Source of the DNA: Sinomonas sp. ASV322
GTDB taxonomy: Bacteria > Actinomycetota > Actinomycetes > Actinomycetales > Micrococcaceae
Length of the DNA stretch: 64,000 nt
Assembly (NCBI RefSeq): GCF_030908245.1
Contig: NZ_JAVFJJ010000011.1
Location: 1 to 64,000, forward strand
Direction: 5' to 3'
The position numbers were made by a program, and so were the translations under genes. Positions 14,099-57,676 of this stretch are shown piece after piece (the first letter of the stretch is position 1; every line of letters starts with the position of its first letter). The notes under the pieces were generated by a model that searched no databases, was not told the DNA's origin, and saw nothing but the letters and a program-made list of their open reading frames with translations.

Positions 14099-15271
14099 GT
14101 GGACGCCGAAGTCTCTGACCCCTCCGACCTCATCTCCTTCAACGCGCTCCTCACCGACGAGGAGGCCGCCGCTCGCGATCGCGTCCGGGAGTTCGTGCGC
14201 GCGGAGATCAAGCCGAACATCGCGCGCTGGTACGAGGAGGCGCGCTTCCCGCTCGAGATCGTCCCCGAGCTCGGCCGCCTCGGGCTCCTCGGCATGCACC
14301 TCAGCGGCTACGGCTGCGCGGGCCGCTCCGCCGTCGAGTACGGGCTCGCGGGCGCCGAGCTCGAAGCCGGCGATTCGGGGCTGCGAACGTTCGTCTCCGT
14401 GCAGGGTTCACTCGCGATGTCCGCGATCTCCAAGCACGGCTCCGACGACCAGAAAGAGGAGTGGCTCCCCCGCATGGCCGCGGGCGAGGCGATCGGCTGC
14501 TTCGGGCTCACCGAGCCGACCGCGGGTTCGGACCCGGGAGCGATGCGCACGTTTGCGCGCCGTGACGGCGCGGATTGGCTGCTCTCGGGGAGCAAGCGGT
14601 GGATCGGTCTCGCCTCGGTCGCGCAGGTCGCCGTGATCTGGGCGCAGACGGACGACGGCGTGCGCGGCTTCGTCGTGCCGACGTCCAGTCCCGGGTTCAC
14701 GGCGACGCCGATCGAGCCGAAGCTCTCGATGCGTGCGTCAATTCAATGCGACGTCCGCCTTGACGACGTGCGGCTGCCCGCAAGCGCCGTCCTTCCGGGG
14801 GCGGTCGGGTTGCGCGGGCCGTTCTCCTGCCTCAACGAGGCCCGGTACGGGATCATCTGGGGCGCGATGGGCGCTGCCCGCGACGCGTTCGAGGATGCCC
14901 TCGCCTATTCGAAGGAGCGCCTCCAGTTCGGCAGGACGCTCGCGGGCTATCAGCTCACGCAGGAGAAGCTCGTCAACATGGCGCTCGAGATCAACAAGGG
15001 CTTCCTCCTTGCGCTGCACCTCGGACGGCTCAAGGACGCCGGCCAGCTCGCGCCCCACCAGGTCAGCGTCGGGAAGCTCAACAACTGCCGCGAGGCGATC
15101 GAGATCTGCCGCGAGGCCCGAACGATCCTCGGCGGCAACGGCATCACACTCGACTATTCGCCGCTGCGGCACGCGAACAACCTCGAATCCGTCCGGACGT
15201 ACGAGGGCACCGACGAGGTGCACACGCTGATCCTCGGCCAGCAGCTCACGGGCGTGGCGGCGTTCCGGTGA
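14099..15271 (+). CDS. Acyl-CoA dehydrogenase, glutaryl-CoA-dehydrogenase-like
   Basis: The protein has 390 residues with a GTG start. FAD/acyl-CoA dehydrogenase signatures are present: CFGLTEPTAGSDPG (about 140), KRWIGLASVAQVAVIWA, and the C-terminal catalytic Glu in YEGTDEVH (Glu369). SVQGSLAMSAI, LNEARYGIIWGA and SMRAS closely follow glutaryl-CoA dehydrogenases, which oxidise and decarboxylate glutaryl-CoA in lysine/tryptophan breakdown. The Arg that binds the distal carboxylate is plausible within these blocks but was not verified. It stands alone here, with no other glutarate gene adjacent. Confidence 0.85.
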   Translation: MDAEVSDPSDLISFNALLTDEEAAARDRVREFVRAEIKPNIARWYEEARFPLEIVPELGRLGLLGMHLSGYGCAGRSAVEYGLAGAELEAGDSGLRTFVSVQGSLAMSAISKHGSDDQKEEWLPRMAAGEAIGCFGLTEPTAGSDPGAMRTFARRDGADWLLSGSKRWIGLASVAQVAVIWAQTDDGVRGFVVPTSSPGFTATPIEPKLSMRASIQCDVRLDDVRLPASAVLPGAVGLRGPFSCLNEARYGIIWGAMGAARDAFEDALAYSKERLQFGRTLAGYQLTQEKLVNMALEINKGFLLALHLGRLKDAGQLAPHQVSVGKLNNCREAIEICREARTILGGNGITLDYSPLRHANNLESVRTYEGTDEVHTLILGQQLTGVAAFR

Positions 15272-40738: not shown

Positions 40739-41278
40739 ATGAAAGCCGTGACATCGTCTCCTTCGCAGCTCGCAGCAGCGGCGCTGCCCGCCGATCGCGT
40801 CGCTCGCGTCGCGCTCGCGGTCGCGCGGATGCTCGCCGGGCTCCTGTGGATTCAGAATCTCTCGTGGAAATCGCCGACGGGTCCGAATTTCGGCGGCTTG
40901 CACGAATGGACCGAAAATGCGGTCAACCATCCCGTGTTCGCCCCGTGGGCGTGGACGGTCGAACACATCGTCCTGCCGAACTTTGCCGCCTTCGCGTGGA
41001 TGACCCTGATCGTCGAGACCTGTCTTGGCGCGTTCCTGCTCGTGGGCCTCGCGACGAGGTTCTGGGCGGCCATCGGGCTCGCGCAGACCGTTGCGATCTC
41101 CCTGTCCGCGGTGAATACGCCCGGCGAATGGTTCTGGTCGTATGCGCTCATGTTCGCCCTGCATCTGGCCATCCTGGGCGCCGCCGCGGGCCGCACCTTC
41201 GGCCTCGACGGAGTGCTGCGTCCCGCCTGGCGGACCCGGCGCGGCGCCCTCGCCAAGCTGCTCACGGCGGTGTCCTGA
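40739..41278 (+). CDS. DoxX-like membrane protein
   Basis: The protein has 179 residues with AGGA five bases before the ATG. Four hydrophobic helices: ARVALAVARMLAGLLWI, LPNFAAFAWMTLIVETCLG, FLLVGLATRFWAAIGLAQTV and WSYALMFALHLAILGAAAG. The GLLWIQNLSWKSP entry and ATRFWAAIGL follow DoxX/TQO-small-subunit-like membrane proteins, which are linked to sulfur and thiol redox chemistry in some bacteria. It is the first gene of the six-gene operon that ends at 44685; the next gene starts 1 base after its stop. Confidence 0.8.
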   Translation: MKAVTSSPSQLAAAALPADRVARVALAVARMLAGLLWIQNLSWKSPTGPNFGGLHEWTENAVNHPVFAPWAWTVEHIVLPNFAAFAWMTLIVETCLGAFLLVGLATRFWAAIGLAQTVAISLSAVNTPGEWFWSYALMFALHLAILGAAAGRTFGLDGVLRPAWRTRRGALAKLLTAVS

Positions 41279-41279
41279 G

Positions 41280-41618
41280 ATGAGGCGGGCCACGATCACA
41301 CTCGGAATCGCCTCGGCGGCCTCGACCCTGACCGCGCTGCCCCTCGGGAAATTGCAGATGGAAAGCCTGTCCGGTGCGGGCTTCGTCGCGGTGCTGATCC
41401 TGGCCGCGGCCACAGCGATCGCGGGGCTCCTCCGCCTGAGGCCTCTCGCCGTGGTGTCGGGACTCGGATTCCTCGGCGTCGCGCTCTTCGAGCTCGTGCA
41501 GCTCGCAACGACGGACGCCAACGCGCTGGGCGGATCCCTCTCGACGGTTTCGATGCAGTTCGCCTTCGGGCTGGGCGTGATCGCCGTCGCCAGCATGACG
41601 AGAAAGGCTCAAGCATGA
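41280..41618 (+). CDS. Small membrane protein (mycobacterial Rv1678-like)
   Basis: The protein has 112 residues and three to four hydrophobic segments: TITLGIASAASTLTALPLG, GFVAVLILAAATAIAGLLRL, LAVVSGLGFLGVALFELVQL and FAFGLGVIAVASM. Length and hydrophobic pattern fit small actinobacterial membrane proteins of the Rv1678 kind; this is a resemblance, not a proven match. It sits between the DoxX-like and permease genes, and its stop overlaps the permease start (ATGA at 41615-41618), so it belongs to the same complex or pathway. Confidence 0.7.
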   Translation: MRRATITLGIASAASTLTALPLGKLQMESLSGAGFVAVLILAAATAIAGLLRLRPLAVVSGLGFLGVALFELVQLATTDANALGGSLSTVSMQFAFGLGVIAVASMTRKAQA

Positions 41619-42730
41619 ACGAGATCACGGCAGGCATCGAACCCCAAGACATCGGACAGCTCGACGACGAGCTCACGGCGGATACCGCGCGCCGGCGGCG
41701 GCGCAGGGTGCTGGTGGGCACGCTCGCCACGGCGGCTCTGGCCATCGCGGCCCTCGCGTGGGCGAAATGGTACCCCTACGCGCTCAAGCTCCCCGTCGTG
41801 GCCGGGAGCCACTCGTTGGGAGACTCCCTCCTGTCCGGCAAGGCGGGCGCGCCGCCGTCGCCCTCGTGGAACGCGGCGGTCGGCTATGCACTCGGCTACC
41901 TCGCATCGATCTGGCAGGCGCTCGTCGCGGGCCTCCTTGTGGCCGCGGCGGTTGAGGCGTTCCTTCCGGCGCGCCGCCTGCTCGCGCTGTTCCAGGCGAG
42001 GCGCGGCATCGCGGCGAGCACGGTCTGCGGCGGCCTCCTGTCGATGTCGTCGATGATGTGCACGTGCTGCGCGGCACCGGTCGCGCTCTCCATCCGCCGC
42101 AGGGGTGTGCCGGTCAGCTCCGCGCTCGCGTACTGGCTCGGCAATCCCGTGCTCAACCCGGCGGCCTTGGCCTTCATGGCCTTCGTGCTTCCGTGGCAGT
42201 TCCTCGCCGTCCGGGTCGGCACCGGCGTTATCCTCGTCTTCGGCCTCACGCTGCTCGTGGGCCGCCTTGCGAAGGGGACGACGGTCGCCGACCCCGCCGA
42301 CGAGCCCGTCGAAGCCGCGACCGCGACCCGCTCGGCCGTCCGGTTCGTCAAGGCGCTGGCCCGGCTCGCGGTGCGCCTCCTGCCGGAGTACGCCGTCGTC
42401 GTGCTGCTCTTGGGCGGCTTCCGCGGCTGGCTGTTCCCGGCGGCCGGCACGCTCGCGTCGTGGGGCCTGCTCGCGGCCGTCCTGCTGGCCGTCGTCGGGA
42501 CCCTCTTCGTGATCCCGACCGCCGCCGAGATCCCCATCATCGGCGGCTTGATGGCCGCGGGGGTCGGAATGGGCCCCCTCGGCGCCCTCGTGCTGACCCT
42601 GCCGGCCTTGAGCCTGCCCTCGATGCTCATGGTCCGGCGGGCCTTCCCCGGCCGCGTGATCGTGGCCACGGGGCTCGCGGTCATGGCCATGGGGCTCGTG
42701 GGCGCGCTCGCGATGGCGGTGCTGGCGTGA
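41615..42730 (+). CDS. ArsP/DUF318-type permease with CTCC motif
   Basis: The protein has 371 residues, an N-terminal cytoplasmic Arg-rich patch and about eight to nine membrane helices. The half-site MSSMMCTCCAAP carries Cys149, Cys151 and Cys152, and the second half has IPTAAEIPIIGGLMAAGVGMG. This twofold arrangement (CxCC...P with GNPVLNP, then EIPI/GGL) is that of the ArsP/DUF318 (SO_0444-like) permeases, which export organoarsenicals or metal ions in known cases. The start overlaps the previous gene and the stop overlaps the TusA-like gene (GTGA), so all are translated in step. The substrate is not known. Confidence 0.87.
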   Translation: MNEITAGIEPQDIGQLDDELTADTARRRRRRVLVGTLATAALAIAALAWAKWYPYALKLPVVAGSHSLGDSLLSGKAGAPPSPSWNAAVGYALGYLASIWQALVAGLLVAAAVEAFLPARRLLALFQARRGIAASTVCGGLLSMSSMMCTCCAAPVALSIRRRGVPVSSALAYWLGNPVLNPAALAFMAFVLPWQFLAVRVGTGVILVFGLTLLVGRLAKGTTVADPADEPVEAATATRSAVRFVKALARLAVRLLPEYAVVVLLLGGFRGWLFPAAGTLASWGLLAAVLLAVVGTLFVIPTAAEIPIIGGLMAAGVGMGPLGALVLTLPALSLPSMLMVRRAFPGRVIVATGLAVMAMGLVGALAMAVLA

Positions 42731-43011
42731 GCGGTCTGGGCGTGAGCGGTCTGGGCGTGAGCCGAGCTGCCGTGGGCGTCCACCCGGCCGCGGTGTGCGA
42801 CGGCGGTCCGCTCGACTGCGGCGGCGGGCTCCTCATCGCCATCCGCCGCGCTCTCGGCCAGCTCGCGCCCGGCCAGATCCTCGAGATCCGGAGCGAGGCG
42901 CGATCCGTCGCCGTCGACCTCCCGGCCTGGTGCGAGGTCGCGGGCCATCCGCTCGAAGGCACCGCGAACCACGGCATCAGCACGAGCTATTTCGTCCGGA
43001 AGGCAGGGTGA
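42727..43011 (+). CDS. Free-standing TusA-like sulfur-carrier protein
   Basis: The protein has 94 residues from a GTG at 42727 that overlaps the permease stop. Its pattern is TusA-like: an LDC site, then GGGLLIAIRRAL, PGQILEIRSEARSV, DLPAWCEVAGHPL and a Y-F-V-R-K-x-G end, matching the layout of E. coli TusA (LRC, PEP, helix, PGE.L, D.PGFC, H.L, IRKGG). The active cysteine aligns with Cys31, but the usual CPxP is CGGG. Cys24 and Cys69 are also present. The N-terminus is a repeated VSGLG made by a 15-bp tandem duplication of the start region, which gives three possible GTG starts (42727, 42742, 42757). Confidence 0.8.
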   Translation: MSGLGVSGLGVSRAAVGVHPAAVCDGGPLDCGGGLLIAIRRALGQLAPGQILEIRSEARSVAVDLPAWCEVAGHPLEGTANHGISTSYFVRKAG

Positions 43012-44027
43012 CCGTGATCGAGGCGGACGCGGTGCTTGACGCCGGCGGAGCAGACTTCGGCAACGGCCTCCTGCTCAAGCTGCATGCAGCACTCGATTCG
43101 TTGGCCGACGAAGCAGTCCTCGAGGTCCGCGACGCCGCGTCGTCCGTGCCCGAAGACCTCGCGGCGTGGTGTGTGCTCACCGGGAACACGCTCGTCGGCC
43201 CGCTCCTCGTGCGCAAGGGCGCCATCGAGGCCGAAGACGACGTCCCGCCGCTGGGCACCCGCCTGTGGCTCTACAGCAACTTCGACTGCAACCTCGCGTG
43301 CACGTACTGCTGCGCCGAGTCGTCGCCGCGCGCGGTCGCGCGGCGGCTCCCGGTCGACGTCGTCCGCTCGGCCGTCCGCGAATTCGCCGCGGAGGGTGGC
43401 TCCGAGGTCTTCGTGACGGGCGGCGAGCCCTTCATGCACCCCGAGCTCGGCGACATCGCGGAGGCGGTGATCGAACACCTGCCGCTCACGATCCTCACGA
43501 ACGGCATGATCTATCAGCGGGGCACGCGCCGGGCCACGCTCGAAGCGCTCGACCGGGAACGCGTCACGCTGCAGATCTCGCTCGACTCGGCGACCCCGGC
43601 CCTGCATGACCGGTCCCGCGGGGCGGGGTCCTTCGCGCGCGCGCTCGCCGGCATCGAGCTCGCGCGATCGCTCGGATTCCGCGTGCGCGTCGCCGCGACG
43701 ATCGACCCGGCGGACGCCGACGAGATCGGAGGCCTCCGCGAGCTGCTGACGAGTGAGGGCATCCGGGATGGCGATCTCGTGGTCCGTCGCGTCGCGAGGC
43801 AGGGCTTCGCCGAGGGCGGCGTCGTGCTCACGCGCGAGGACCTCGCGCCGGAGCCGACCGTGGCGGCCGACGGCGTGTGGTGGCATCCCGTGGGCGTCAC
43901 CGATCCGACGTTCAAGGTTCGCGATTCCCCGCTCCCCATCCGCGCTGCCTTGGACGAGATCGCGCGAATCCTCGGCGAGGCGGAGACTGAACGTGACCAC
44001 ATCAGGCACGCGTTCCGCTGTGCGTGA
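43008..44027 (+). CDS. Radical SAM enzyme with N-terminal TusA-like domain
   Basis: The protein has 339 residues from a GTG at 43008 that overlaps the previous stop; GGAAGG lies upstream. Residues of about 12-72 form a TusA-like domain homologous to the upstream protein (GNGLLLKLHAAL, VLEVRDAASSV, DLAAWC, LVRKG), but the sulfur-carrier Cys position is Phe17. The radical SAM core follows: Cys94, Cys98 and Cys101 in CNLACTYC bind the [4Fe-4S] cluster, then FVTGGEPFMHPEL, LTILTNGM and LQISLDSATPALHD. There is no SPASM-type cysteine cluster at the C-terminus. A radical reaction on a TusA-bound or small-molecule substrate is a reasonable guess; the reaction is unknown. Confidence 0.9.
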   Translation: MTVIEADAVLDAGGADFGNGLLLKLHAALDSLADEAVLEVRDAASSVPEDLAAWCVLTGNTLVGPLLVRKGAIEAEDDVPPLGTRLWLYSNFDCNLACTYCCAESSPRAVARRLPVDVVRSAVREFAAEGGSEVFVTGGEPFMHPELGDIAEAVIEHLPLTILTNGMIYQRGTRRATLEALDRERVTLQISLDSATPALHDRSRGAGSFARALAGIELARSLGFRVRVAATIDPADADEIGGLRELLTSEGIRDGDLVVRRVARQGFAEGGVVLTREDLAPEPTVAADGVWWHPVGVTDPTFKVRDSPLPIRAALDEIARILGEAETERDHIRHAFRCA

Positions 44028-44043
44028 GATTTCGGAGGCGACC

Positions 44044-44685
44044 ATGGCGGCCAATCGACCGACAAACCAAGCCGAACGCGCCGCGCACTGGAACCTCGTC
44101 TACGACACGAAGGGCGAGGACGCCGTCAGCTGGTACCAGTCCGTCCCGACCAAGACCCTCGAGCTCTTCGACGTGCTCGGCGTGGGCCCCGATGCCGCGG
44201 TCATCGACGTCGGCGGCGGCGCCTCCGTCGTCGTCGACCACCTGCTCGCCCGAGGCTTCGGCGACGTCTCGGTCCTCGACCTCTCCAGGGTCGCGATCGA
44301 GCGGGCCCGCGCGCGCCTCGGCGCTGACGCCGAGCGGGTCCACTGGCTCCACCGGGACCTTCTCGGGTGGGCGCCCGAGCGCCGCTACGACGTGTGGCAC
44401 GACCGCGCGGTCTTCCATTTCCTCATCGAGGACGAGGAGCGCCGCGCGTACCTCCGCACGCTGCGGGCCGGGCTCGCCCCCGGCGCGCGTGTCATCGTCG
44501 CGACGTTCGACGCCGACGGCCCGACTCACTGTTCGCGGCTGCCAGTCGCCCGCTACAGCGCCGCCGACCTCGCGGCGCAGTTCGCGCCCGACTTCGAGCT
44601 CGTGACATCGCGCCGCGAGGAGCACGTCACGCCGGCCGGGCTCATCCAGCCGTTCACCTGGGTCGTGCTGACCGCGCGCGCGTGA
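44044..44685 (+). CDS. Class I SAM-dependent methyltransferase of the radical SAM operon
   Basis: The protein has 213 residues; GGAGG is well placed before the ATG. Motif I is VIDVGGGASVVVDHLLARG (about 56), then VSVLDLSRVAIERARARL, YDVWHDRAVFHFL (about 117) and ARVIVATFDADGP. The N-terminal HWNLVYDTKGEDAVSWYQ is characteristic of a small group of bacterial methyltransferases of unsettled substrate. It follows the radical SAM gene by 16 bases on the same strand and is probably in the operon, where it would methylate the product. The last 32 bases overlap a convergent glycosyltransferase gene. Confidence 0.85.
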   Translation: MAANRPTNQAERAAHWNLVYDTKGEDAVSWYQSVPTKTLELFDVLGVGPDAAVIDVGGGASVVVDHLLARGFGDVSVLDLSRVAIERARARLGADAERVHWLHRDLLGWAPERRYDVWHDRAVFHFLIEDEERRAYLRTLRAGLAPGARVIVATFDADGPTHCSRLPVARYSAADLAAQFAPDFELVTSRREEHVTPAGLIQPFTWVVLTARA

Positions 44686-46150
44686 GGCCCACCCCGAGCA
44701 CCACGAGCGCCGCCGCGGCCATCGCGACTCTCGCGACGGGCGCTCCCGCGTCCGTCCCGACGGTCGCCGTCACGGCTTCGAGTGCGAGCGGCACCACGAG
44801 GAGCTCGGGGCGGCGCCCGAGCACGGCCAGCGGAACGAGCATGAGCGCGTACCACGCGTAGCTCGGACACACGATCAGGAGCGTCCAGCCGACCGCGAGC
44901 GCCTGGGCCGTCATCGGCTCGAGGACGTGGCGCCTGGCCCACACCCAGACCCACACGGCGAGGACCGCCGCGAGCCCGACGACGAGCGCCGCGAACGGCG
45001 GCAGCAGGATGCCGGGAAGGGCGAAGCGGGACTTGTCCCCGGAGGCGTAGCCCTCCTCCGAGAGGTAGCCGGGAAGGTACCCGATCACGGCCGGCCCCGA
45101 CACGGCGACGTACGGAACGTAGGCGGCGACAAACGCGGCAAGCGCCGCGGCGCCGAAGCGCCACGGCCTGTTCCTGAGCATTCCCGGGAGGGCGACGGCG
45201 GGGATGAGCTTCGTCGCGACGGCGAGCCCGAAGAACGCGCCCGACGACGCCGCCCTCCGGGCCGACGGGAGGCCCGCTCCGGGGACGCCCGCGCCGAGGA
45301 GGCCAGCCCCCAGGAGGAGCGCGGCCGAGAGCACGTCGACGTGCGCGTTGTTCACCGCCTCGAGCAGGACGAGCGGGTTCCACGCCCAGAGGGCGGCCCA
45401 CGAAGGCGGCCGCCCCTCGCGGCGCAGCGCCCGCACGACGACGAGCGCGACGGCGAGCGCGAGACCGAGTCCCGCGATTTGGAAGGCGAGCCACGCGACG
45501 CCCGGCGGCAGCGGGAGCCGCACGAGGGCGAAGAACGCCTCGGCGACGGGCGGATAGGCCGTCGGCACGTGCGGGCGGTTGATCGCAGTGCACAGGGGTG
45601 TCCCGCTCGGCACGGACGTGGTCGGGACGCCGCCCGTGGGGAACGCGGCGACGCACGCGTCCGCCGATGCTGCGCCCGGCCCCGCGAAGAGCCAGCCGGG
45701 GCGCAGGCCCGCGAGCGCATCCGCCGCGGGCACGTCGCGGTATGGGGAGATCCCGGCCTTCTGGACGATCCCGTCCCACGCGTAGCGGGCCGAGTCGTTG
45801 CTCGTGAGCGGCGGCGCGGCCAGCGCGGCGGCGCCCGCCGCGAGCAGGCCGAGGACGACGGCGGCAATCACCCAGCGCTCCGAGGCGCCGCGGCGCTCGG
45901 CGGACCTGAGCAGAAGCCACGCGCACCCTGCCGCAGCACAGCACAGCCCCGTCCCGACGAGGACGTGCACCGGGCCGCCGTCGCGCACGGTCACCGTCCA
46001 CCACACCGCGGCCGAGAGCGCTGCGAGCGCGAGGCCGACGCCCGCGAGCGCCGCATGTGCCCGTGCCGACGCGGGTCGAGCCAGCACGGTCCGGCCCGTG
46101 CTCGGGCTACGGTCGATCGCACGCGAAACCACGTTGACAGCGTGCCTCAC
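44654..46150 (-). CDS. GT87/DUF2029-type polytopic glycosyltransferase
   Basis: The protein has about 498 residues if it starts at the GTG at 46150; the frame stays open to 46231 but enters a repetitive intergenic element there. About ten membrane helices are visible. The loop LTSNDSARYAWDGIVQKAGISP (first part) holds the acidic residues typical of GT-C enzymes, followed by HVPTAYPPVAEAFFALVRL and NPLVLLEAVNNAHVDVLSA. The family uses polyprenyl-phosphate sugars, in actinobacteria often mannose. It is convergent with the methyltransferase gene and on the same strand as the GT2-DUF2064 fusion upstream. Confidence 0.8.
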   Translation of the reverse strand: MRHAVNVVSRAIDRSPSTGRTVLARPASARAHAALAGVGLALAALSAAVWWTVTVRDGGPVHVLVGTGLCCAAAGCAWLLLRSAERRGASERWVIAAVVLGLLAAGAAALAAPPLTSNDSARYAWDGIVQKAGISPYRDVPAADALAGLRPGWLFAGPGAASADACVAAFPTGGVPTTSVPSGTPLCTAINRPHVPTAYPPVAEAFFALVRLPLPPGVAWLAFQIAGLGLALAVALVVVRALRREGRPPSWAALWAWNPLVLLEAVNNAHVDVLSAALLLGAGLLGAGVPGAGLPSARRAASSGAFFGLAVATKLIPAVALPGMLRNRPWRFGAAALAAFVAAYVPYVAVSGPAVIGYLPGYLSEEGYASGDKSRFALPGILLPPFAALVVGLAAVLAVWVWVWARRHVLEPMTAQALAVGWTLLIVCPSYAWYALMLVPLAVLGRRPELLVVPLALEAVTATVGTDAGAPVARVAMAAAALVVLGVGLTRARSARPR

Positions 46151-46170
46151 GATGTAGCCCCGGAGGCCGT

Positions 46171-46289
46171 CCGCCGGTCGACCGCAGTTCCGCCGGTCGG
46201 CTGCAGCTCCGCCGGCCCTTAGCCCCGCCACTGCGGCGGACCCCCTTCGCCAACGGAGTTCCGCCGGTTGACTGCAGGACCGCCGGTTT
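46171..46289. repeat. 19-bp intergenic repeat cluster
   Basis: The unit CCGCCGGTCGACCGCAGTT recurs with small changes: 46171-46189, 46190-46208, a truncated copy from 46209, another full unit at 46261-46279, and a partial unit from 46280. A GGCGGA inverted half sits between. It lies between two co-directional glycosyltransferase genes. It looks like a mobile or genome-wide palindromic intergenic element. Confidence 0.6.
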
Positions 46290-46295
46290 CTCGGC

Positions 46296-47651
46296 TCACG
46301 GGACCCGCTCCACCGCGCCGAGCACCCGCCCCACCGCGGCCGCGAGGTCGGTCCCGCCCATCACAGCCGCGACCGCGACGGCGTCGGCGGCCGTGTCGAT
46401 ATCGCGGAGCCGCGGGAGCAGGCCGACGGTGAGCCCGGCGCGGCGGAGCCGCTCGAGCTGCCGCGATCCGGTGTCGGGCCGCGACATGGGCACGCCGCGA
46501 ATCAGCCTGCCGTCGGGACGTGCCATCGCGATGGCCCAGAATCCGCCGTCATGAGCGAGGCCCAGCCACGCGTCGGCGCCGCGCCGGGAGTCCGGAGCCC
46601 AGTCGTGGAAGAGCGAGGCGAGGTCGTCCGCCGTGAACTGCGGCGTATCCATGCCGAGGACGAGGAGCGGCCCGTCGACGGCGTCGCACAGCGCGCCGAG
46701 ACGCGTGTCGAGGTCCCCCGCGGGCTGGGCGAGCACGTCGAAGCCGGCGGTGTCAACGGCGCCCGGGTCGCCGTCGAAGAAGAGCAGCCGACGGCGCGCG
46801 GGCAGCGAGCGGACAGCGTCGAGCGTGGCCGCGAGGCTCAGCGACGCCACGAGCGCGGCCTCCTCGGGCGAGAACGGCGGGGAGAGGCGGGTCTTGACCC
46901 GTCCGGGCACGCACTCCTTGGCGACCACGGCGATCGTGAGGCAGCCCTCGGGCACGCGCCGCGCGCCGTCGTCCGCCAGCCTGCCCCGCGGCGCTCGGGA
47001 GGCGAGATGCCCTGCCATGTCCCGGACAGCAGTCACCGTCCCCTTGAGCGTTCCCGTGACCTTGGAGCGGCCGACGCGCGGCGCGTAGCCGACCGGGAGC
47101 TCGGCGATGCGCCACCCGGACTCGGCCGCGCGGAGCACCATCTCGAGCGGGTAGCCGCTGCGGCGGTCGCGGAGCCCGAGGCCCCGGAGCGCCTCGGTGC
47201 GCGCCGCCCGCATCGGGCCCAGGTCGCTCACGGGCACGCCGAACCCGAGCCGCAGCGCCCCCGCGAGCGCGGCGTTCGCAAGTCTCGCGTGCAGCGGCCA
47301 GGCCCCGCGCTCGGGGCGGCGGGCACCGAGGACGAGGTCGGCGTCGCCCGTTTCGAGCGGTTCGAGGAGCGCCGGAAGCTCGGCGGGATCGAGGGAGCCG
47401 TCGGCGTCGCACACGGCGACGAAGGGGGCACTCGCGTGTTCGAGGCCCGCGTGGACGGCCGCGCCGAATCCGCGGCGGGGCTCGACGACCACGCTCGCGC
47501 CGAGCTGGGCCGCGAGCTCACCCGATCCGTCGGACGAGCCGTTGTCGACGACGATCGCCCGCCACCCAACGGGCACCCGGCCGAGGACCCACGGAAGTGC
47601 CTCGCGTTCGTCGAGGCACGGGAACACGACGTCGGCCCTGATCTCGTTCAC
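46296..47651 (-). CDS. GT2 glycosyltransferase fused to DUF2064 transferase domain
   Basis: The protein has 451 residues with a GTG start. The N-terminal half (about 1-225) is a GT2 enzyme: VVFPCLDEREALPWVL, VVDNGSSDGSGELA, AVCDADGSLDP and GYPLEMVLRAAESGWRIAELPVGY. The C-terminal half (about 235-445) fits DUF2064 (the TIGR04282-like transferase family): TIAVVAKECVPGRVKTRLSP, LLFFDGDPG, LLVLGMDTPQFT and DGGFWAIAMARPDG. The two families are known as neighbours of radical SAM/arsenosugar-type genes, often as separate genes; here they are fused. This hints at a link with the operon ending at 44685, but that operon faces the other way. Confidence 0.87.
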   Translation of the reverse strand: MNEIRADVVFPCLDEREALPWVLGRVPVGWRAIVVDNGSSDGSGELAAQLGASVVVEPRRGFGAAVHAGLEHASAPFVAVCDADGSLDPAELPALLEPLETGDADLVLGARRPERGAWPLHARLANAALAGALRLGFGVPVSDLGPMRAARTEALRGLGLRDRRSGYPLEMVLRAAESGWRIAELPVGYAPRVGRSKVTGTLKGTVTAVRDMAGHLASRAPRGRLADDGARRVPEGCLTIAVVAKECVPGRVKTRLSPPFSPEEAALVASLSLAATLDAVRSLPARRRLLFFDGDPGAVDTAGFDVLAQPAGDLDTRLGALCDAVDGPLLVLGMDTPQFTADDLASLFHDWAPDSRRGADAWLGLAHDGGFWAIAMARPDGRLIRGVPMSRPDTGSRQLERLRRAGLTVGLLPRLRDIDTAADAVAVAAVMGGTDLAAAVGRVLGAVERVP

Positions 47652-47773
47652 AAGCCGACGCTAGGGCCACGCCCCCGGCCCGCGCGCCCGCAGAACCTTA
47701 CGGAACGCGGAACGATCGCGATCGGGCGGCCCCGGCCCCCGCCGGGGGGCGTGGGTTGGCCTATCCTGCGAGA

Positions 47774-48508
47774 GTGAGCGCAGACCGCACCCAGGGCAGC
47801 CTGCTCGGCAACCCGCTCGGGAACCGAAGGATCCTCGTCGTCGAGGACGAGCTGACCCTGTGCGACGTCGTGCGCGGCTACCTCGCCCAGGCGGGGTTCC
47901 AGGTCGACGTGGCCCACGACGCGTTCACGGCAATGCACCTCGCCGCGACGCGCGAACCGGACCTCATCCTCATGGACCGGCTGATCCCCGGCCTCGACGG
48001 GGCCGAGGTGTGCCGGCGGCTGCGGGCGACAACCGACGTCCCGCTCATCATGCTCACGGCCCTCGGCACGGAAGACGACCGGATCGTGGGCCTCGAAGCA
48101 GGCGCCGACGACTACATCACGAAGCCCTTCTCCCCGCGCGAGCTCGTCCTGAGGGTCGAATCCGTCCTGCGGCGCAGCCTCCGGGCCTTCGATCCCGAGC
48201 CTCCCGTCGAGGGCGGCGGCATCTGGCTCGACCCGGGCTCGCGCACCGCGAAGCTCGGGGGCGAGCCGCTGACCCTCACGCTCCGCGAGTTCGACCTCCT
48301 CGCCTTCTTCCTCCGGCATCCCGGCCAGGCGTTCAGCCGAGAGGACCTCATCAAGGCCGTGTGGGGCTGGTCCTTCGGAGATCTCTCGACCGTGACCGTG
48401 CACGTGCGCAGGCTTCGCGAGAAGATCGAGCCCGATCCCAAGAACCCGTCGCTCCTCACGACCGTGTGGGGCATTGGGTACCGCTTCGACGGAGCCGGAG
48501 CCCCCTGA
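47774..48508 (+). CDS. OmpR/PhoB-type response regulator
   Basis: The protein has 244 residues with a GTG start. REC: RRILVVEDELTLCDVVRGYL, phospho-acceptor Asp in LILMDRLIPGLDG (about 68), the Thr/Lys switch residues in IMLTALG and YITKPFSPREL. The winged-helix output is LTLREFDLLAFFLRHPGQAF, then VWGWSFGDLSTVTVHVRRLREKIE. The stop overlaps the start of the histidine kinase by one base (TGATG). It is a normal cognate pair. The targets are not known; the divergent GT2-DUF2064 gene is 122 bases away. Confidence 0.94.
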   Translation: MSADRTQGSLLGNPLGNRRILVVEDELTLCDVVRGYLAQAGFQVDVAHDAFTAMHLAATREPDLILMDRLIPGLDGAEVCRRLRATTDVPLIMLTALGTEDDRIVGLEAGADDYITKPFSPRELVLRVESVLRRSLRAFDPEPPVEGGGIWLDPGSRTAKLGGEPLTLTLREFDLLAFFLRHPGQAFSREDLIKAVWGWSFGDLSTVTVHVRRLREKIEPDPKNPSLLTTVWGIGYRFDGAGAP

Positions 48509-49683
48509 TGCGCGAGGGCCTCCTTATGACTCTCGCCTGGCTGCTCGTCTGGGCGGTCGCGATCACCGCGCTGAGCATCGGGCTCCAGCGACTCGCGCGG
48601 CGGGAGCCGTTCTGGGTTCAGCTCGTCATCGTCGTCGCCGCGACGGTCGGCGTCTTCGTCGCCGGGGTCGTCAACGCGTTCAACGCCATGGCGATCACCG
48701 AGAGCGACCTCGCGACCGTGTGGGTCATCCTTGCAGCCGCGGGAGCCGTCGCGATCGCGATGTCCCTCATCCTCGGCTTCCGCCTCTCGCGCTCGACGAC
48801 GAGGCTCATCGCCGACGCCGCGCGGATCGGCCGCGGCGAGGTGCTCGGCAGCGATCGGCCCCTCGCGACCGACCCGGCCGGCAGCGCCGAGCTCACGGCG
48901 CTCGCGGACGAACTTGCCCGCACGAGCCGCCGGCTCGAGGAGTCACGCGCCCGCGAGGCGGCCATCGAATCGGCGCGGCGAGAGCTCGTGGCCTGGATCT
49001 CGCACGATCTGCGCACCCCGCTCGCGACCCTCCGCGCCATGGCGGAGGCCGTCGAGGACGGCGTCGCGACGGACGCTTCCGACTACCACCGCCGCATGAT
49101 CGCCGAGACCGACCACATGGCCGCCATGGTCAACGACCTCCTCGAGCTCTCGACCCTCGAGGCCGGGACGCTCACCCTGCGCAGGGAGCCGGTCGAACTC
49201 TACGATCTTGCGAGCGACGTCTTGGCCGAGCTCACCCCGCTCGCGGCGCAGCGCGGGGTGGCGCTCGACGGCGGCGAATCGTCCGGGGGCCGCGTCGTCG
49301 CCGACGCGCGGACGGCGAGCAGGGCTCTGCGCAACGTCGTGCTCAACGCGATCATGTACAGCGTCGAGGGAGGCATCGTCACCGTCGGCTTCGGCCAGGG
49401 TTCGGCCCCCGACGGGTCCCGCGAGGCCCTCGTGTGGGTCCAGGACACGTGCGGCGGCATCGCCGAGGAGGACCTCCCGCACCTCTTCGCGCCCGGGTGG
49501 CGGAAGTCGGAGTCGCGGGGCAGGGCGGTCGGCCAGAACCGCGGCGGTTCGCTGTACGCGGGCGCTGGGGTGGGACTGAGTGTCGTAGCGGGCATTGTTC
49601 AGGCTCACGGCGGACGGGTGACGGTCGAGAATCGGAACGGGGGCTGCCGCTTCACGCTGGCCTTCCCCGTCGACGCGCCGTGA
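48508..49683 (+). CDS. Two-transmembrane sensor histidine kinase
   Basis: The protein has 391 residues. Helices near residues 5-27 and 35-60 and around 70-95 put most of the protein in the cytoplasm, with almost no external loop, so it likely senses within the membrane. HAMP-like LIADAARIGRGEVLGSDR, HisKA with phospho-His in LVAWISHDLRTPLATLRAM (about 171), and HATPase_c (NVVLNAIMYSVEG, DTCGGIAEEDLPHLF, GAGVGLSVV). The G1 box is DTCGGI rather than DTGxGI, a variant seen in some kinases. It pairs with the overlapping OmpR regulator. Confidence 0.92.
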   Translation: MREGLLMTLAWLLVWAVAITALSIGLQRLARREPFWVQLVIVVAATVGVFVAGVVNAFNAMAITESDLATVWVILAAAGAVAIAMSLILGFRLSRSTTRLIADAARIGRGEVLGSDRPLATDPAGSAELTALADELARTSRRLEESRAREAAIESARRELVAWISHDLRTPLATLRAMAEAVEDGVATDASDYHRRMIAETDHMAAMVNDLLELSTLEAGTLTLRREPVELYDLASDVLAELTPLAAQRGVALDGGESSGGRVVADARTASRALRNVVLNAIMYSVEGGIVTVGFGQGSAPDGSREALVWVQDTCGGIAEEDLPHLFAPGWRKSESRGRAVGQNRGGSLYAGAGVGLSVVAGIVQAHGGRVTVENRNGGCRFTLAFPVDAP

Positions 49684-49788: not shown

Positions 49789-50700
49789 ATGGCAAGGCCC
49801 CTCGCGATGGCCTCGTCGGCAGGGCTCGCCGCCGCCGCGCTCACGGTACGGGCCGCGGGGCACCTCTCTCCCCGGCTCGGCGCCGCGGCGGCCCTTCCCC
49901 TGTTCATGAACACGCGCCCGCGGATGCGCCTCAGGCCGTCCGACGTTCCGACGATGCTCGCGGCAGAGCGCAGCACCGTGCCGGTCCCTGGCATGCACGG
50001 CCGCGGAGGGGAAGCCGTCGCCTACGCGTGGGAGCCCGCCGAGTCCCCCGTCCTGCTCGTGCACGGCTGGGGCGGCAGGGCCGCGCAGTACGCCCCCCTG
50101 GTCCGAGCGCTCCACGACGCCGGGATCGGCACCGTCGCGTTCGATGCCCCGGCCCACGGCGATTCGCCGGGGCGCGGCACGTACATCGTCGACTTTCAGG
50201 CGGCGATCACCGAGCTCGCGCGCCGCCATGGGCCGTTCCGCGCCGCCGTGGGACATTCCTTCGGCGCGTTCGCGACCCTCATCGCCGTGGCCGAGGGCCT
50301 TGAGGCATCGCGCGTCGCGGCCATTTCGGCCCCTCCCGACAGCGCTTTCATGATCTCCTCGTTCGCGCACGGAGTGGGCCTCGGGCCGGCGAGCGCCAAG
50401 GCTCTCCGCGACCGCTTCGCCCGGCGCATCCTGCCGCACGAACCGCAGGCGTTCGAACGGTACAACGCGGTAGACCGGCCGTTCCCCGGGGACGTGCCGT
50501 GCCTGTTCGTCCACGACACGGCAGATCCCGTCGTGCCCCTCGCCGAGGCCGAGAGGCTCGTCGAGGCGCGCCAGCCGAACGCTAGCCTCGTGACCACGAC
50601 CGGCCTCGGGCACTACCGAACCGTCTCGGACCCTGCCGTGGTCGAGGCGGTCACCGCGTTCATCGCCGACGGCGCCCGCGGGCCATCCGCGCGGCCCTGA
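49789..50700 (+). CDS. Alpha/beta hydrolase
   Basis: The protein has 303 residues. The oxyanion strand is PVLLVHGWGGRAAQY (about 88), nucleophile Ser157 is in VGHSFGAFA, the acid is in FVHDTADPVVPLAEAE (about 245), and His is in TTGLGHYRTVSDP (about 275). All three catalytic residues are present. It may be a lipase/esterase or C-C hydrolase; the substrate is unknown. The last 88 bases overlap the convergent epimerase gene. The spacing to the preceding histidine kinase (105 bases) suggests its own promoter. Confidence 0.87.
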   Translation: MARPLAMASSAGLAAAALTVRAAGHLSPRLGAAAALPLFMNTRPRMRLRPSDVPTMLAAERSTVPVPGMHGRGGEAVAYAWEPAESPVLLVHGWGGRAAQYAPLVRALHDAGIGTVAFDAPAHGDSPGRGTYIVDFQAAITELARRHGPFRAAVGHSFGAFATLIAVAEGLEASRVAAISAPPDSAFMISSFAHGVGLGPASAKALRDRFARRILPHEPQAFERYNAVDRPFPGDVPCLFVHDTADPVVPLAEAERLVEARQPNASLVTTTGLGHYRTVSDPAVVEAVTAFIADGARGPSARP

Positions 50701-51755
50701 CGCCGCAGGCCGGCCGCAAGGGCGCCCATCCCCTCCTCGAAACCGATGCGCGGGCGCCAGCCGAGCTCCGCGGCGATCGCGGCCGAGCTCGCGGTGATGT
50801 GCCGGACGTCTCCGGCGCGGAACTGGCCGGTCACGACGGGGGCCGCGGCGCCCGCGCCCCGCGCTAGGACTTCGGCGACGTCGAGGATGGTCTGAACGGC
50901 GGGGCCTCCCACGTTGAAGGCCCGGAACGCCGTTCTACCCGCTGAACCCTGTTCGCCGCCTACTGCGTGCCGCGCCGCGAGCACGGTGGCCTCGGCGACG
51001 TCGTCGACGTGCACGAAGCTCCGACGCTGCTGCCCGTCCTCGAACACGTGCGGGGCCTCGCCGCGCGCGACGGAAGAGGCGAAGAGCGCCGCGACGCCAG
51101 CGTAGGGCGTGTTGCGAGGCAGCCCGGGTCCGTAGACGTTGTGATACCGGAGCGCGACGGCGGTGCCCCCGCCCGCCCGGGCCCACGTTGCGACGAGGTG
51201 CTCTTGGGCGAGCTTGCTGAGCGCGTAGACGCTGCGCGGGTCGGTCGGCGCGTCCTCGGTGGTGAGCGCTGGGAGGAGGACGGCACCGTCATCCGGATCG
51301 CGCGGTTCGAAGAGGCCCTCCGCAAAGTCCGCCTCCCGCCGCGGTGCGGGCCGCACACTCCGGCCGGTCGCTGGGTGGACGTACGTTCCGTCGCCGTACA
51401 CGACCATCGACGAGGCGAGCACGAGGCCGCGGATTCCGTGGCGGACGAGCGCCGGCAAGAGCTGGGCGGTCGCGAGCACATTCGTGCTCGCGTACGACGG
51501 CGCGTCCCCGATCCCCTGCTCGAGCCCCACCTTCGCTGCGAGGTGGCAGACGACGCCGACTCCCCCGAGCGCCGCATCGAGGACCCCCGCATCGGCGACG
51601 TCCCCGCGGAAGTAGACGACGCCGTCGTCCGCTTCTTCCTCACGCTCGGGGCGGGGCGCGAGGTCGAGGACGCGCACCTCCCAGCCGTCGGCGAGCGCCG
51701 CGCGCACGACCGCGGAGCCGATGAATCCCGCCCCTCCCGTGACGAGGAGCCTCAC
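50613..51755 (-). CDS. NAD-dependent epimerase/dehydratase
   Basis: The protein has 380 residues from the GTG at 51755, which overlaps the MTA-phosphorylase stop (GTGA). Extended SDR: LLVTGGAGFIGSAVV for NAD(P), DVADAGVLDAALGGVGVVCHLAAK, active-site LVLASSMVVYGDG, and Tyr/Lys in SVYALSKLAQEHL (about 190). NVYGPGLPRNTPYAGVAALF and RSFVHVDDVAEATVLA follow sugar-nucleotide 4-epimerases and dehydratases. The last 28 residues are encoded inside the convergent hydrolase gene. The substrate is not clear. Confidence 0.87.
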   Translation of the reverse strand: MRLLVTGGAGFIGSAVVRAALADGWEVRVLDLAPRPEREEEADDGVVYFRGDVADAGVLDAALGGVGVVCHLAAKVGLEQGIGDAPSYASTNVLATAQLLPALVRHGIRGLVLASSMVVYGDGTYVHPATGRSVRPAPRREADFAEGLFEPRDPDDGAVLLPALTTEDAPTDPRSVYALSKLAQEHLVATWARAGGGTAVALRYHNVYGPGLPRNTPYAGVAALFASSVARGEAPHVFEDGQQRRSFVHVDDVAEATVLAARHAVGGEQGSAGRTAFRAFNVGGPAVQTILDVAEVLARGAGAAAPVVTGQFRAGDVRHITASSAAIAAELGWRPRIGFEEGMGALAAGLRRQGRADGPRAPSAMNAVTASTTAGSETVR

Positions 51756-52603
51756 CGCTGGGCCCCTCGTGGCGTCGCGGGCGTCGCCGTCATGACGGAC
51801 CGAACGGCAGACTCGGGGAGCAGCCTGCGCGGCTCGTAGTCGGCGGGGACGCGTCGCGCCGCCTCCGTGAGGACGCGCTCGAAGACCTTGCTGGCCTCCG
51901 TGAGGCGCGCCCATACCGCGTCGGCGGTGACGGCCTCGTCGGCGTGCTCGCCCGCGTCGGAGTCCGTGACGAAGGCGAGGGTCGCGTAGCCCATCCCGAG
52001 CTCGGCCGCGAGGACGGCCTCGGGGTACTGCGTCATCCCGACCACGTGCGCACCGGCCTGGGCGAGCCAGCGGGACTCTGCGCGGGTCGAGAAGCGCGGG
52101 CCGTTGATGACCGCCATCGTCGCCGTGGGCCGGTACGGAAGCTGCGCGCGGTCCATCGCCGCCGCGAGGACCCGCCGCAGGTCCGGGCAGTAGGGGTCCG
52201 AGGCGGGGAGGTGCTGGACGCCGGCAGCCGCACCCGGCCCCTCGCCGTCGAAGTACGTGTCCCGGCGGCCCCACGTCCGGTCGATGAACTGGTCGGGGAT
52301 CACGAACGTTCCCGGAGCGAGCTCGGGCACGAGGCCCCCGCACGCCGCGGACGCGAAGACCGCCGAGACGCCGAGCCGTGTGAGCGCCCACAGGTTGGCC
52401 CGGTAGTTGACCGCCTGGGGCGCGACCGTGTGGCCGCGGCCGTGCCGAGCGAGGAACGCGATCGTCGCCCCGCCCGCGTCGACAAGCGAGATCGCGCCCG
52501 ACGTCGGGCCGTAGGGGGTGGGGATCTCGAGCTCCTCGGCCCGGCCCTCGAGCTTGTAGAGCCCGGAGCCGCCGATGATGGCGACGCGGGCCGCCTCGTT
52601 CAT
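51752..52603 (-). CDS. mtnP: S-methyl-5'-thioadenosine phosphorylase
   Basis: The protein has 283 residues from the ATG at 52603; a GTG at 52612 would add three. Phosphorylase family 2 motifs: VAIIGGSGLYKLEG, FLARHGRGHTVAPQAVNYR, SAACGGLVPELAPGTFVIPDQFIDRT (as separate blocks), INGPRFSTRAESRW, VVGMTQYPEAVLAAELGM and AFVTDSDAGE (purine Asp). It splits methylthioadenosine to adenine and methylthioribose-1-phosphate in methionine salvage. It is unusual that it is coupled to a sugar epimerase gene and not to other salvage genes. Confidence 0.92.
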   Translation of the reverse strand: MNEAARVAIIGGSGLYKLEGRAEELEIPTPYGPTSGAISLVDAGGATIAFLARHGRGHTVAPQAVNYRANLWALTRLGVSAVFASAACGGLVPELAPGTFVIPDQFIDRTWGRRDTYFDGEGPGAAAGVQHLPASDPYCPDLRRVLAAAMDRAQLPYRPTATMAVINGPRFSTRAESRWLAQAGAHVVGMTQYPEAVLAAELGMGYATLAFVTDSDAGEHADEAVTADAVWARLTEASKVFERVLTEAARRVPADYEPRRLLPESAVRSVMTATPATPRGAQR

Positions 52604-52705
52604 GCGTTCCACGGAGCCATCCTGCCCGCTGCCCGCGTTCGGCGGGCAGGGCTCGCCTTACGATTCCGTGACGGTGCGCGGCCCGTCGTGTGAGACAGTG
52701 AAGCC

Positions 52706-56452: not shown

Positions 56453-57676
56453 TCAGCGCGGAAGGTGCAGCACGAGGCCGAGGACGCCCGCCGCGAGGAC
56501 GATCCACGGCTCGCCGATCTTGAACCGCCACAGCAGCCCGAGCGTCACGAGGCCAACGGCGGCGGTCACCCAATCCGTGACGGCCTGCCGCGTGAGGACA
56601 ACGACGGCACCGGCGAGCGCGCCGGCCGCCGCGGCGGTCGCGCCAGCGACGAACGCCTGGACGCGCTTGTTCTCCCGGTGACGGATGAACCACTTCCCGA
56701 GGAGGACGACCGCGAGGTAGATCGGGGTGAAGATCCCAACGGTCGCAACGACCGCGCCCGGGAACCCAGCCGTGAGATAGCCGATGAATCCGGCGGTGAT
56801 GACGACGGGACCGGGGGTGATGAGTCCCATCGCGACGGCGTCGAGGAACTGGGCTTGGTCGAGCCAGTGGTGCTGGTCCACGACGCCGTCGCGAAGGAGC
56901 GGGACGATCGCGAGCCCGGACCCGAAGACGAGGGCACCGGTCTGGAGGAAGAACAGGCCGAGCGGCACGAGCGTCGCGGCGACGCCCGCCCCGAGAGCCG
57001 CGGCGGGCGCCGCAAGCACAGGCAGGAGCGCGTGCCCGTGAGCGGCGGGAGGCGACTCGTCCTCAGGGCGCTTCCGTCGCTTCCTCCAATGCGGCGGGGC
57101 ATCGAAAAGGAGGATCACGAGGCCTGCACCGAGGATGAGGGGAATGGGCTCCGAGCCCGTGAGGGCAGTCACCGCAAAGACGACCGCGCTGATCGCCCAC
57201 AGCCGCCAGTCGCGACGATCCGTGAGCTTGAGGAGCTTGTAGGCGGCAATGAGGATGATGGCCATCACCGCGGGGGCGATGCCGTAGAAGAGGGCCTGGA
57301 CGATCCCGGTTCCGGCGTAGGCCGCGTAGAGGGCCCCAGCGACGACGACCATCAGGAACGACGGACCGATGAACGCCGCGGCGACCGCGAAAGCGCCCCA
57401 CGGCCCGCGCCGGAGGTAGCCGATCCACATGGCCACCTGCGCCGCAAGCGGCCCCGGCATGGCCTGCCCGAGCGCGACGCCATCAAGGAAGTCCTGCCGG
57501 GCGATCCACTCGCGCTGTTCGACTAGGTCGCGCTGCATGTACCCAACGGTGGCGATCGGGCCGCCGAAACCGATCGTGCCGAGACGGAGGAAGTAGAGGA
57601 GGAACTTCCGGAACGGGACCACCTCACCCGAGGCAGGCGTGGCCTCGGCGCTGTGGCCGTCCGCACCGTTGGTCAT
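56453..57676 (-). CDS. chrA: Chromate-efflux transporter ChrA (two-domain)
   Basis: The protein has 407 residues and ten or so membrane helices in two homologous CHR domains. First: TIGFGGPIATVGYMQRDLVE, ALGQAMPGPLAAQVAMWIGY. Second: VFGSGLAIVPLLRDGVVDQH, AMGLITPGPVVITAGFIGY. The FGG-GYM/Q and GP(L/V) blocks in both halves are the CHR hallmark. It exports chromate, by family precedent. A short reading frame upstream ends in an ATGA overlap with its start, but no ChrB or other partner is evident. Confidence 0.93.
   Translation of the reverse strand: MTNGADGHSAEATPASGEVVPFRKFLLYFLRLGTIGFGGPIATVGYMQRDLVEQREWIARQDFLDGVALGQAMPGPLAAQVAMWIGYLRRGPWGAFAVAAAFIGPSFLMVVVAGALYAAYAGTGIVQALFYGIAPAVMAIILIAAYKLLKLTDRRDWRLWAISAVVFAVTALTGSEPIPLILGAGLVILLFDAPPHWRKRRKRPEDESPPAAHGHALLPVLAAPAAALGAGVAATLVPLGLFFLQTGALVFGSGLAIVPLLRDGVVDQHHWLDQAQFLDAVAMGLITPGPVVITAGFIGYLTAGFPGAVVATVGIFTPIYLAVVLLGKWFIRHRENKRVQAFVAGATAAAAGALAGAVVVLTRQAVTDWVTAAVGLVTLGLLWRFKIGEPWIVLAAGVLGLVLHLPR

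Follow-up and report, generated by a model that had tools for sequence, protein, structure and literature searches.

A Sinomonas gene cluster that probably makes a methylthioxylose-type thiosugar with the help of a sulfur/radical arm

We analysed a 64,000-nucleotide stretch of DNA from Sinomonas sp. ASV322 (assembly GCF_030908245.1, contig NZ_JAVFJJ010000011.1, positions 1 to 64,000), hereafter the window, and found in it a gene cluster whose probable product is a rare sugar containing sulfur, displayed on the cell surface; such a decoration is known from the lipoarabinomannan of the tuberculosis bacterium. The cluster has two arms: a run of six genes for a sulfur carrier, a radical SAM enzyme and their companions, which would form one half of the cluster, and a set of sugar genes resembling those for methylthioxylose (MTX) in mycobacteria. 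Genomic context supports moderately well the broad claim that the cluster is of the MTX thiosugar type and carries a sulfur/radical arm. Gene content, the conserved neighbourhood, a swap of partner proteins and the carrier cysteines are direct observations; from them we infer the chemical steps, their order and the acceptor, and taken whole the two-arm explanation, which we consider the best, has a probability of roughly 0.55.

Gene content of the locus

The original prediction placed at 40739-44685 an operon that would activate a chalcogen or metalloid on a carrier, modify it by radical chemistry and methylation, and export the product. Its six packed genes, all on the + strand, proved real, as did their 4-base overlaps (41615-41618, 42727-42730 and 43008-43011) and the 16-base gap before the last gene, but the range ends halfway through a cluster that runs on to 52612. 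The first gene (40739-41278, +) encodes a 179-residue DoxX/DoxD-like membrane protein with 23.9 bits on PF04173 (DoxD; cut-off, 22.7) and 23 versus 300 on NF041179, the thiosulfate:quinone oxidoreductase DoxD equivalog, and its homology to DoxD/DoxX is only distant. It is followed by a 112-residue membrane protein of the Rv1678 C-terminal family (41280-41618, +; NF049986, 53.5 versus 50), a 371-residue ArsP_1 permease (41615-42730, +; PF03773, 86.5 versus 32.3) that does not reach the SaoE model (32.2 versus 325), a 94-residue TusA-like sulfur carrier (42727-43011, +; PF01206, 29.1 versus 28.6), a 339-residue radical SAM enzyme with a fused TusA-like domain (43008-44027, +; Radical_SAM, 83.6 versus 29.5, and NF049973) and a 213-residue class I methyltransferase (44044-44685, +; PF08242, 43.6 versus 30). 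Several of these assignments exceed their Pfam or NCBIfam cut-offs only narrowly.

The sugar genes lie beyond the range first described. A GT87 glycosyltransferase gene (44654-46231, start possibly at 46087, -; PF09594, 43.5 versus 25) shares 32 bases at its 3' end with the methyltransferase gene, and beside it lies a fusion of an MtxS-like GT2 polyprenyl-phosphate sugar synthase with a nucleotidyltransferase-like DUF2064 domain (46296-47651, -; PF00535, 67.7 versus 23.3; PF09837, 56.7 versus 25.8). Then come a response regulator and histidine kinase (47756-49683, +; library matches), a hydrolase gene, a GalE-like SDR epimerase (50613-51755, -) and a 5'-methylthioadenosine/methylthioinosine phosphorylase (51752-52612, -; NF006599, 227.3 versus 223). 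The phosphorylase is the single close copy in the genome; it falls narrowly below two models of methylthioadenosine (MTA) phosphorylase (TIGR01694, 265.7 versus 274.85; a second model, 290.4 versus 306), and the solved chains nearest to it are mostly MTA phosphorylases.

One paper identifies MtxS and MtxT as Rv0539 and Rv0541c (PMC8780516). Another, from 2024, states that MTX is made from MTA, with a donor based on decaprenyl phosphate and an enzyme of the GT-C type; whether MTX-type transfer occurs beyond lipoarabinomannan assembly is called unclear there (PMC11127046). One mycobacterial genome (G150) sets together an MTA phosphorylase (476.6 versus 306), an epimerase, a GT2, a DUF2064 protein and a 454-residue GT-C protein, ~12-20 kb from its radical SAM gene. 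We take this set for the MTX cluster and the 454-residue protein for a putative MtxT homologue, the names MtxS and MtxT being given here by position in the gene order Rv0535-Rv0541c and by family rather than from a named sequence. The window resembles mycobacterial MTX capping in its MTA-type phosphorylase, GalE-like epimerase, DUF2064 and MtxS-type GT2, whose sequence identity to the protein at the MtxS position of G150 is 53-56%. It differs in having GT87 in place of MtxT, the GT2-DUF2064 fusion and the sulfur/radical arm. Moreover, PF04602 (EmbABC-type) arabinosyltransferases gave no match in the window's genome (97.87% complete), so that lipoarabinomannan cannot be assumed to be the acceptor.

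In mycobacteria and some other organisms, DoxX and the membrane protein of the Rv1678 family form a single fused protein, found at two of the loci described below. A flippase role was considered for the fused protein, but its predicted structure (predicted local distance difference test score (pLDDT), 91.2) matched no solved fold at E<=0.001, the best weak match being vitamin-K-dependent gamma-carboxylase (E = 0.053), and therefore we conclude nothing about such a role. A scan for promoters and terminators was uninformative (no promoters versus 0.2 in shuffled sequence; one terminator-like site versus 2.7). Elsewhere in the window, a chromate transporter (PF02417, 272 bits; 56453-57676, -) lies a few genes past the cluster, and a match to the profile of FadE16-like acyl-CoA-dehydrogenase-like (ACAD) proteins lies ~25 kb before it (14099-15271, +).

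Cysteines of the radical SAM enzyme and its carrier

The radical SAM protein scores 382.4 against a cut-off of 380 on the NCBIfam Rv1681 family NF049973 (positions 1-326 of 326). This family is named but functionally uncharacterised, and the original prediction is thus not undercut by membership in a characterised family with an unrelated product. Cys94, Cys98, Cys101 and Cys102, in a CxxxCxxCC motif, and C-terminal Cys338 are invariant in an alignment of 40 of the 74 rows listed, ten of them from the 15-row clade of the window (below). Across a wider set, the extra cysteine that follows the cluster motif is present in 78 of 89 proteins, and 83 of 89 have a terminal cysteine no more than 4 residues from the end. 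In our reading, the invariant cysteines point to an active site that uses thiol or persulfide chemistry. A confident structure prediction (pLDDT 91.7) matches BlsE, SuiB, MoaA, EpeE and viperin, matches that fix the fold of the protein, not its reaction.

The standalone carrier has the cysteine, Cys31, that the original prediction gave it, in the motif D-C-G-G-G. The motif of TusA is CPxP; because the carrier lacks it and falls short of the TusA equivalog NF001423 (22.9 versus 78), we call the protein TusA-like rather than TusA. Its start codon is ambiguous because of a 15-base direct repeat, GTGAGCGGTCTGGGC, at 42727-42756, with in-frame GTG codons at 42727, 42742, 42757 and 42772. The carrier cysteine is present in all eight standalone TusA-like copies listed, one of them truncated. 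The radical SAM protein begins with a fused domain paralogous to the adjoining carrier (44% over 61 residues). This domain had been described as lacking cysteine, which is right for the carrier position, now Phe17, but not for the whole domain, since Cys55 is present. Among the 10 aligned members of the window's clade, eight have a fused domain that retains the carrier cysteine, all eight with Ala at position 55; outside the clade it occurs in none of 30 rows, of which 10 are gapped there, short N-termini aligning poorly. The window and its closest relative among the matches listed (L048) have a fused domain without the carrier cysteine, yet a standalone carrier that has it.

Several relatives show further variations. 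In a branch of five loci the radical SAM enzyme lacks both a TusA-like domain and the cysteine at the C terminus, and all five have an AhpD-like CxxC partner (one was tested against NCBIfam). Five others (L037-L041) encode a radical SAM enzyme fused to a long N-terminal domain that resembles a metallophosphoesterase by eye, no search having been made. Twelve alphaproteobacterial loci carry a second radical SAM/SPASM protein, and the one tested was nearest to a tungsten-cofactor maturase model, below its cut-off (146 versus 380).

Neighbourhoods and co-occurrence of the two arms

We examined the surroundings of relatives of the radical SAM enzyme at 93 loci, labelled as Actinomycetota, Pseudomonadota, Acidobacteriota, Verrucomicrobiota, Gemmatimonadota, Myxococcota and Dormiibacterota; 13 loci were joined by the best 80 of 530 confirmed stretches. 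Five loci (L046, L050, L056, L069 and L080), at which simple gene calling yielded no radical SAM gene reaching 150 bits, were dropped, and neighbours were counted within 12 genes in the remaining 88, excluding the window. The profiles of the families were derived from the very loci in which we then counted them, at thresholds of our own setting, and were also applied to 24 control stretches of 11-20 kb, all from actinobacterial genomes (20 at other radical SAM genes and 4 along the window's contig). The rows include near copies (one pair, L039 and L040, and 13 alphaproteobacterial rows), and 45 of the 88 stretches reach 18 kb; contig ends cut many of the 88.

The most frequent neighbours were a binding-protein-like protein (SBP; 69 of 88), ACAD (60), DoxX (55), DUF2064 (37), GT2 (33) and GT87 (27), followed by the Rv1678-type protein (24), epimerase (11), DsrE (7), TusA (6 as a separate gene, 25 when fused radical SAM domains are counted), the methyltransferase (6), MTA phosphorylase (5) and MtxT (4). 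In the controls every family was absent except GT2 (6 of 24) and MTA phosphorylase (1, the window's own gene at a control edge). Recurrence of the neighbours therefore exceeds chance, apart from GT2, which by itself is weak evidence because of its presence in the controls. At least two core sugar families (GT2 excluded) were found at 32 of the 88 loci and one at a further 8. Eight loci, like the window, hold both arms in joint runs; one of them (L036) places MTA phosphorylase, ACAD, SBP, radical SAM enzyme, epimerase, GT2, DUF2064, GT87, DoxX and a membrane protein in a single run, and another (L127) likewise holds both arms in one gene run. Kin with both arms occur in Streptomyces (for example sp. 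H27-H1, L124), Arthrobacter (sp. AL12, L100) and Phytoactinopolyspora (P. limicola, L127), and partial sugar sets in Acidobacteria and Bradyrhizobium. A regulator of the window's response-regulator group recurs at 8 of the 88 loci, and at six loci the radical SAM gene lies near another phosphorylase family, the one member tested being DeoD-like and far under all cut-offs.

The original prediction had called for a survey of how often its five families occur together. DoxX proved a common companion, but ArsP was near none of the 88 relatives, and TusA and the methyltransferase, outside the window's own radical SAM clade, are scarce; with ArsP at 0 and the other two at 6 each, the exact five-family layout is special to the window's genome among those examined.

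Most relatives adjoin ACAD and SBP, the latter starting without a signal peptide in the six shown (cytosolic); in the PDB, ACAD has acyl-CoA dehydrogenases as relatives and SBP has phosphonate/phosphite binding proteins, which pointed to no specific chemistry. The window's enzyme belongs to a 15-row clade (support 100/100) nested among these ACAD/SBP-partnered relatives, and the clade mostly exchanges ACAD and SBP for TusA/DsrE, or for an importer together with the methyltransferase family of the window, whose relatives beside the radical SAM gene in importer-type loci are 46-49% identical. Because TusA, DsrE and the methyltransferase adjoin the same clade elsewhere, this exchange supports the original view of carrier, radical enzyme and methyltransferase as one functional unit. 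In the tree, one importer-type locus (L061) is mislabelled by our own rule, its binding protein being of the importer type, and another locus ends at a contig end (L053).

At five loci an ABC importer of the phosphonate/putative-selenate type shares an operon with the radical SAM enzyme, DoxX and the methyltransferase, and the two importer binding proteins tested pass TIGR04553 (putative selenate binding; 308.5 and 318.7 versus 250). A Dormiibacterota metagenome-assembled genome, Candidatus Amunia, has two radical SAM loci, one per partner type (L048 and L107); since L048 is the closest relative of the window among the matches listed (66%), transfer or mis-binning is possible.

The association also holds at the level of whole genomes. 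A GT2 query at E 1e-45 matched 43 of 296 genomes of the phylum, including 9 of the 14 with a radical SAM gene of at least 200 bits and 34 of the 282 others (Fisher 1.5e-5; 8 of 13 and 6.7e-5 without the window's genome). The two genes share a contig in seven of the nine and lie <=2.5 kb apart in six. We also searched 21 further radical SAM genomes, drawn from 22 loci of our own choosing, mostly without sugar genes near by, and with no control in this search: all 21 had a GT2 match, 20 at >=184 bits and one at 112, and in 18 the DUF2064 part was co-located with it. In Mycobacterium, an MtxT homologue was found in 92 of 118 genomes and the radical SAM gene in 10, with the two within ~26 kb in six of those 10. 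Many genomes have GT2 or MtxT without the radical SAM gene, so the sugar arm does not need the radical arm, which is an optional addition to it.

A proposed thiosugar pathway and its alternatives

In the pathway that we favour, TusA would deliver a persulfide to the radical SAM enzyme, docking through the paralogous TusA domain, and the enzyme would form a bond from this sulfur to the carbon of the 5'-deoxyadenosyl group, or else to the sugar. The methyltransferase would then methylate the thiol, so that MTA or a close analogue feeds the sugar arm, in which the phosphorylase would cleave the 5'-deoxy-5'-thio-type adenosine to a 5-thio-ribose-1-phosphate, DUF2064 would turn this into a nucleotide sugar, and the GalE-like enzyme would invert a hydroxyl (ribo to xylo). 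The GT2 may load the sugar onto polyprenyl phosphate and GT87 pass it to a surface glycan acceptor, with DoxX and the Rv1678-type protein serving membrane redox and ArsP as a local addition. Adenosyl-sulfur joining is proposed by analogy with arsenosugar synthesis, where, according to one report, a radical SAM enzyme adenosylates arsenic (PMC12159101). The most specific form of the idea, that the Rv1681-type enzyme of this clade is an adenosyl-sulfur ligase in which a TusA persulfide captures the 5'-deoxyadenosyl radical and the adjacent methyltransferase methylates the resulting thiol before an MTX-type sugar pathway takes up the product, is speculative and rather unlikely.

The proposal shares features with other known systems. 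Like the Rv1678-Rv1681 group (NF049986, NF049984, NF049985 and NF049973), the window encodes Rv1678-type and radical SAM proteins that pass the family cut-offs, whereas the FadE16-like dehydrogenase and cytosolic binding protein of that group were not found in its cluster, their place being occupied by TusA, the methyltransferase and ArsP. A lipid-linked pentose donor and GT-C-type transfer are shared with the three-component pentofuranose systems (GT136, polyprenyl phosphoribose synthase), as set out in PMC11127046. Those systems start from phosphoribosyl pyrophosphate, whereas the phosphorylase and DUF2064 of the window point to a 5-modified pentose.

A number of observations weigh against the pathway as proposed. 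No match of 100 bits to the MtxT profile was found in the window, GT87 being there instead; searches for solved relatives of the methyltransferase returned weak, mixed matches and no specific relative; and MTA is already produced by normal metabolism. The partner swap has a true exception in one locus that keeps ACAD and SBP inside the clade (L057), and a locus outside it has ACAD and SBP plus TusA and DsrE ten genes off (L082). Among the 88 relatives, 48 have no core sugar gene (GT2 excluded) in the stretch, and the Bradyrhizobium and Acidobacteria loci show no MTA phosphorylase and no epimerase. GT2 occurs without the radical SAM gene, at the score used, in the 34 phylum genomes counted above, and MtxT does so in 82 of 108 mycobacteria; all 10 mycobacteria with the radical SAM gene also have MtxT, an association that is not significant (p = 0.11). 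The five GT2-less genomes among the 14 all carry the radical SAM enzyme with the different N-terminal domain (L037-L041); with looser profiles, GT2, DUF2064 and an MTA phosphorylase-type gene appeared beside two of these (near copies) and GT2 beside two others.

The main rival keeps the sugar arm and changes the role of the radical one: the enzyme would form no C-S bond and would instead tailor the sugar after MTA cleavage, by epimerisation, oxidation, deoxygenation or a further modification; its cysteines would act as hydrogen-atom donors or a redox relay. The nearest relatives in sequence and fold, which include BlsE (a sugar nucleoside substrate), SPASM/MoaA-type enzymes and the radical epimerase EpeE, fit this well, as does the absence of the radical arm from most MtxT-bearing mycobacteria, expected for an optional step. 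Of the six relatives that lack the C-terminal cysteine, five have an AhpD-like CxxC protein as their partner and one is cut short at a contig end, which also favours tailoring. The swap to TusA/DsrE and the carrier cysteine of the fused domain in the clade are left unexplained by it, and we regard it as doubtful, though to be taken seriously. It is less probable still that the arms adjoin without serving a common pathway, DoxX, the Rv1678-type protein, TusA and the radical SAM enzyme being a separate sulfur/thiol-redox system. The 48 relatives without a core sugar gene suggest such a separation, and the first arm stands by itself in Rhodococcus, Gordonia and most Mycobacterium loci; yet the 21 further genomes, mostly with loci of this kind, all had a GT2 match (one weak), and the joint runs in eight loci and the window, together with the Fisher test, speak for a connection.

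Two readings replace sulfur with another element, and we think both very unlikely. A selenium-containing product (a 5-methylseleno sugar) is suggested by the two sister-cluster binding proteins that pass TIGR04553 and by SelD, which is over its cut-off in 13 of 32 radical SAM genomes, including Mycobacterium attenuatum and M. simiae. SelD is below it, however, in the other 19, among them the window's genome and three further mycobacteria, and the name of TIGR04553 is itself a hypothesis, so that we disfavour this product. Slightly less credible again is an organoarsenical pathway resembling arsenosugar synthesis, in which methylated arsenic is joined to a 5'-deoxyadenosyl group and exported by ArsP. 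ArsP is indeed encoded, the radical adenosylation of arsenic cited above is a precedent, and the proposed logic of our pathway is similar (radical adenosylation of a heteroatom, a phosphorylase, then nucleotidyl and glycosyl transfer), with the DUF2064 and GT2 of the window resembling the arsenosugar transferases TIGR04282 and TIGR04283. The cut-offs of ArsS (TIGR04167, 45.3 versus 300) and of TIGR04282 (94.8 versus 134) are both missed, however, the methyltransferase is not ArsM-like (18.5 versus 510 on an ArsM-type model), and ArsP occurs only in the window's copy of the neighbourhood. With ArsP near none of the 88 relatives and the ArsS cut-off missed, metalloid activation and export were not borne out, and we rejected them as the main explanation. 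The original prediction thus keeps its unit of carrier, radical enzyme and methyltransferase and loses its metalloid and export half, having overlooked the sugar genes. A lipid-linked thiosugar in a surface glycan is the more likely product than a small exported organoarsenical.

In the open-licence literature, which leaves most subscription papers outside, we found no paper that joins radical SAM enzymes, MTA and lipoarabinomannan and no mention of DUF2064 or of Rv1678; papers there that mention Rv1681, judged by their titles and the openings of their abstracts, concern biomarkers, antigens and vaccines, proteomics or host networks. If an adenosyl-sulfur ligase of the kind proposed exists, it would provide a second, de novo route to MTA-type sugars, parallel to the chemistry of ArsS on arsenic. 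In that case the Rv1678-Rv1681 group of mycobacteria would represent a variant of the same system with another sulfur supply. The gene set, in a genome where PF04602 gave no match, together with its two-arm kin, makes MTX transfer outside lipoarabinomannan testable in harmless bacteria, and the orphan Rv1678-Rv1681 group of mycobacteria gains a function to test. More generally, the coupling of a sulfur carrier to a radical SAM enzyme could reveal a new form of C-S bond formation.

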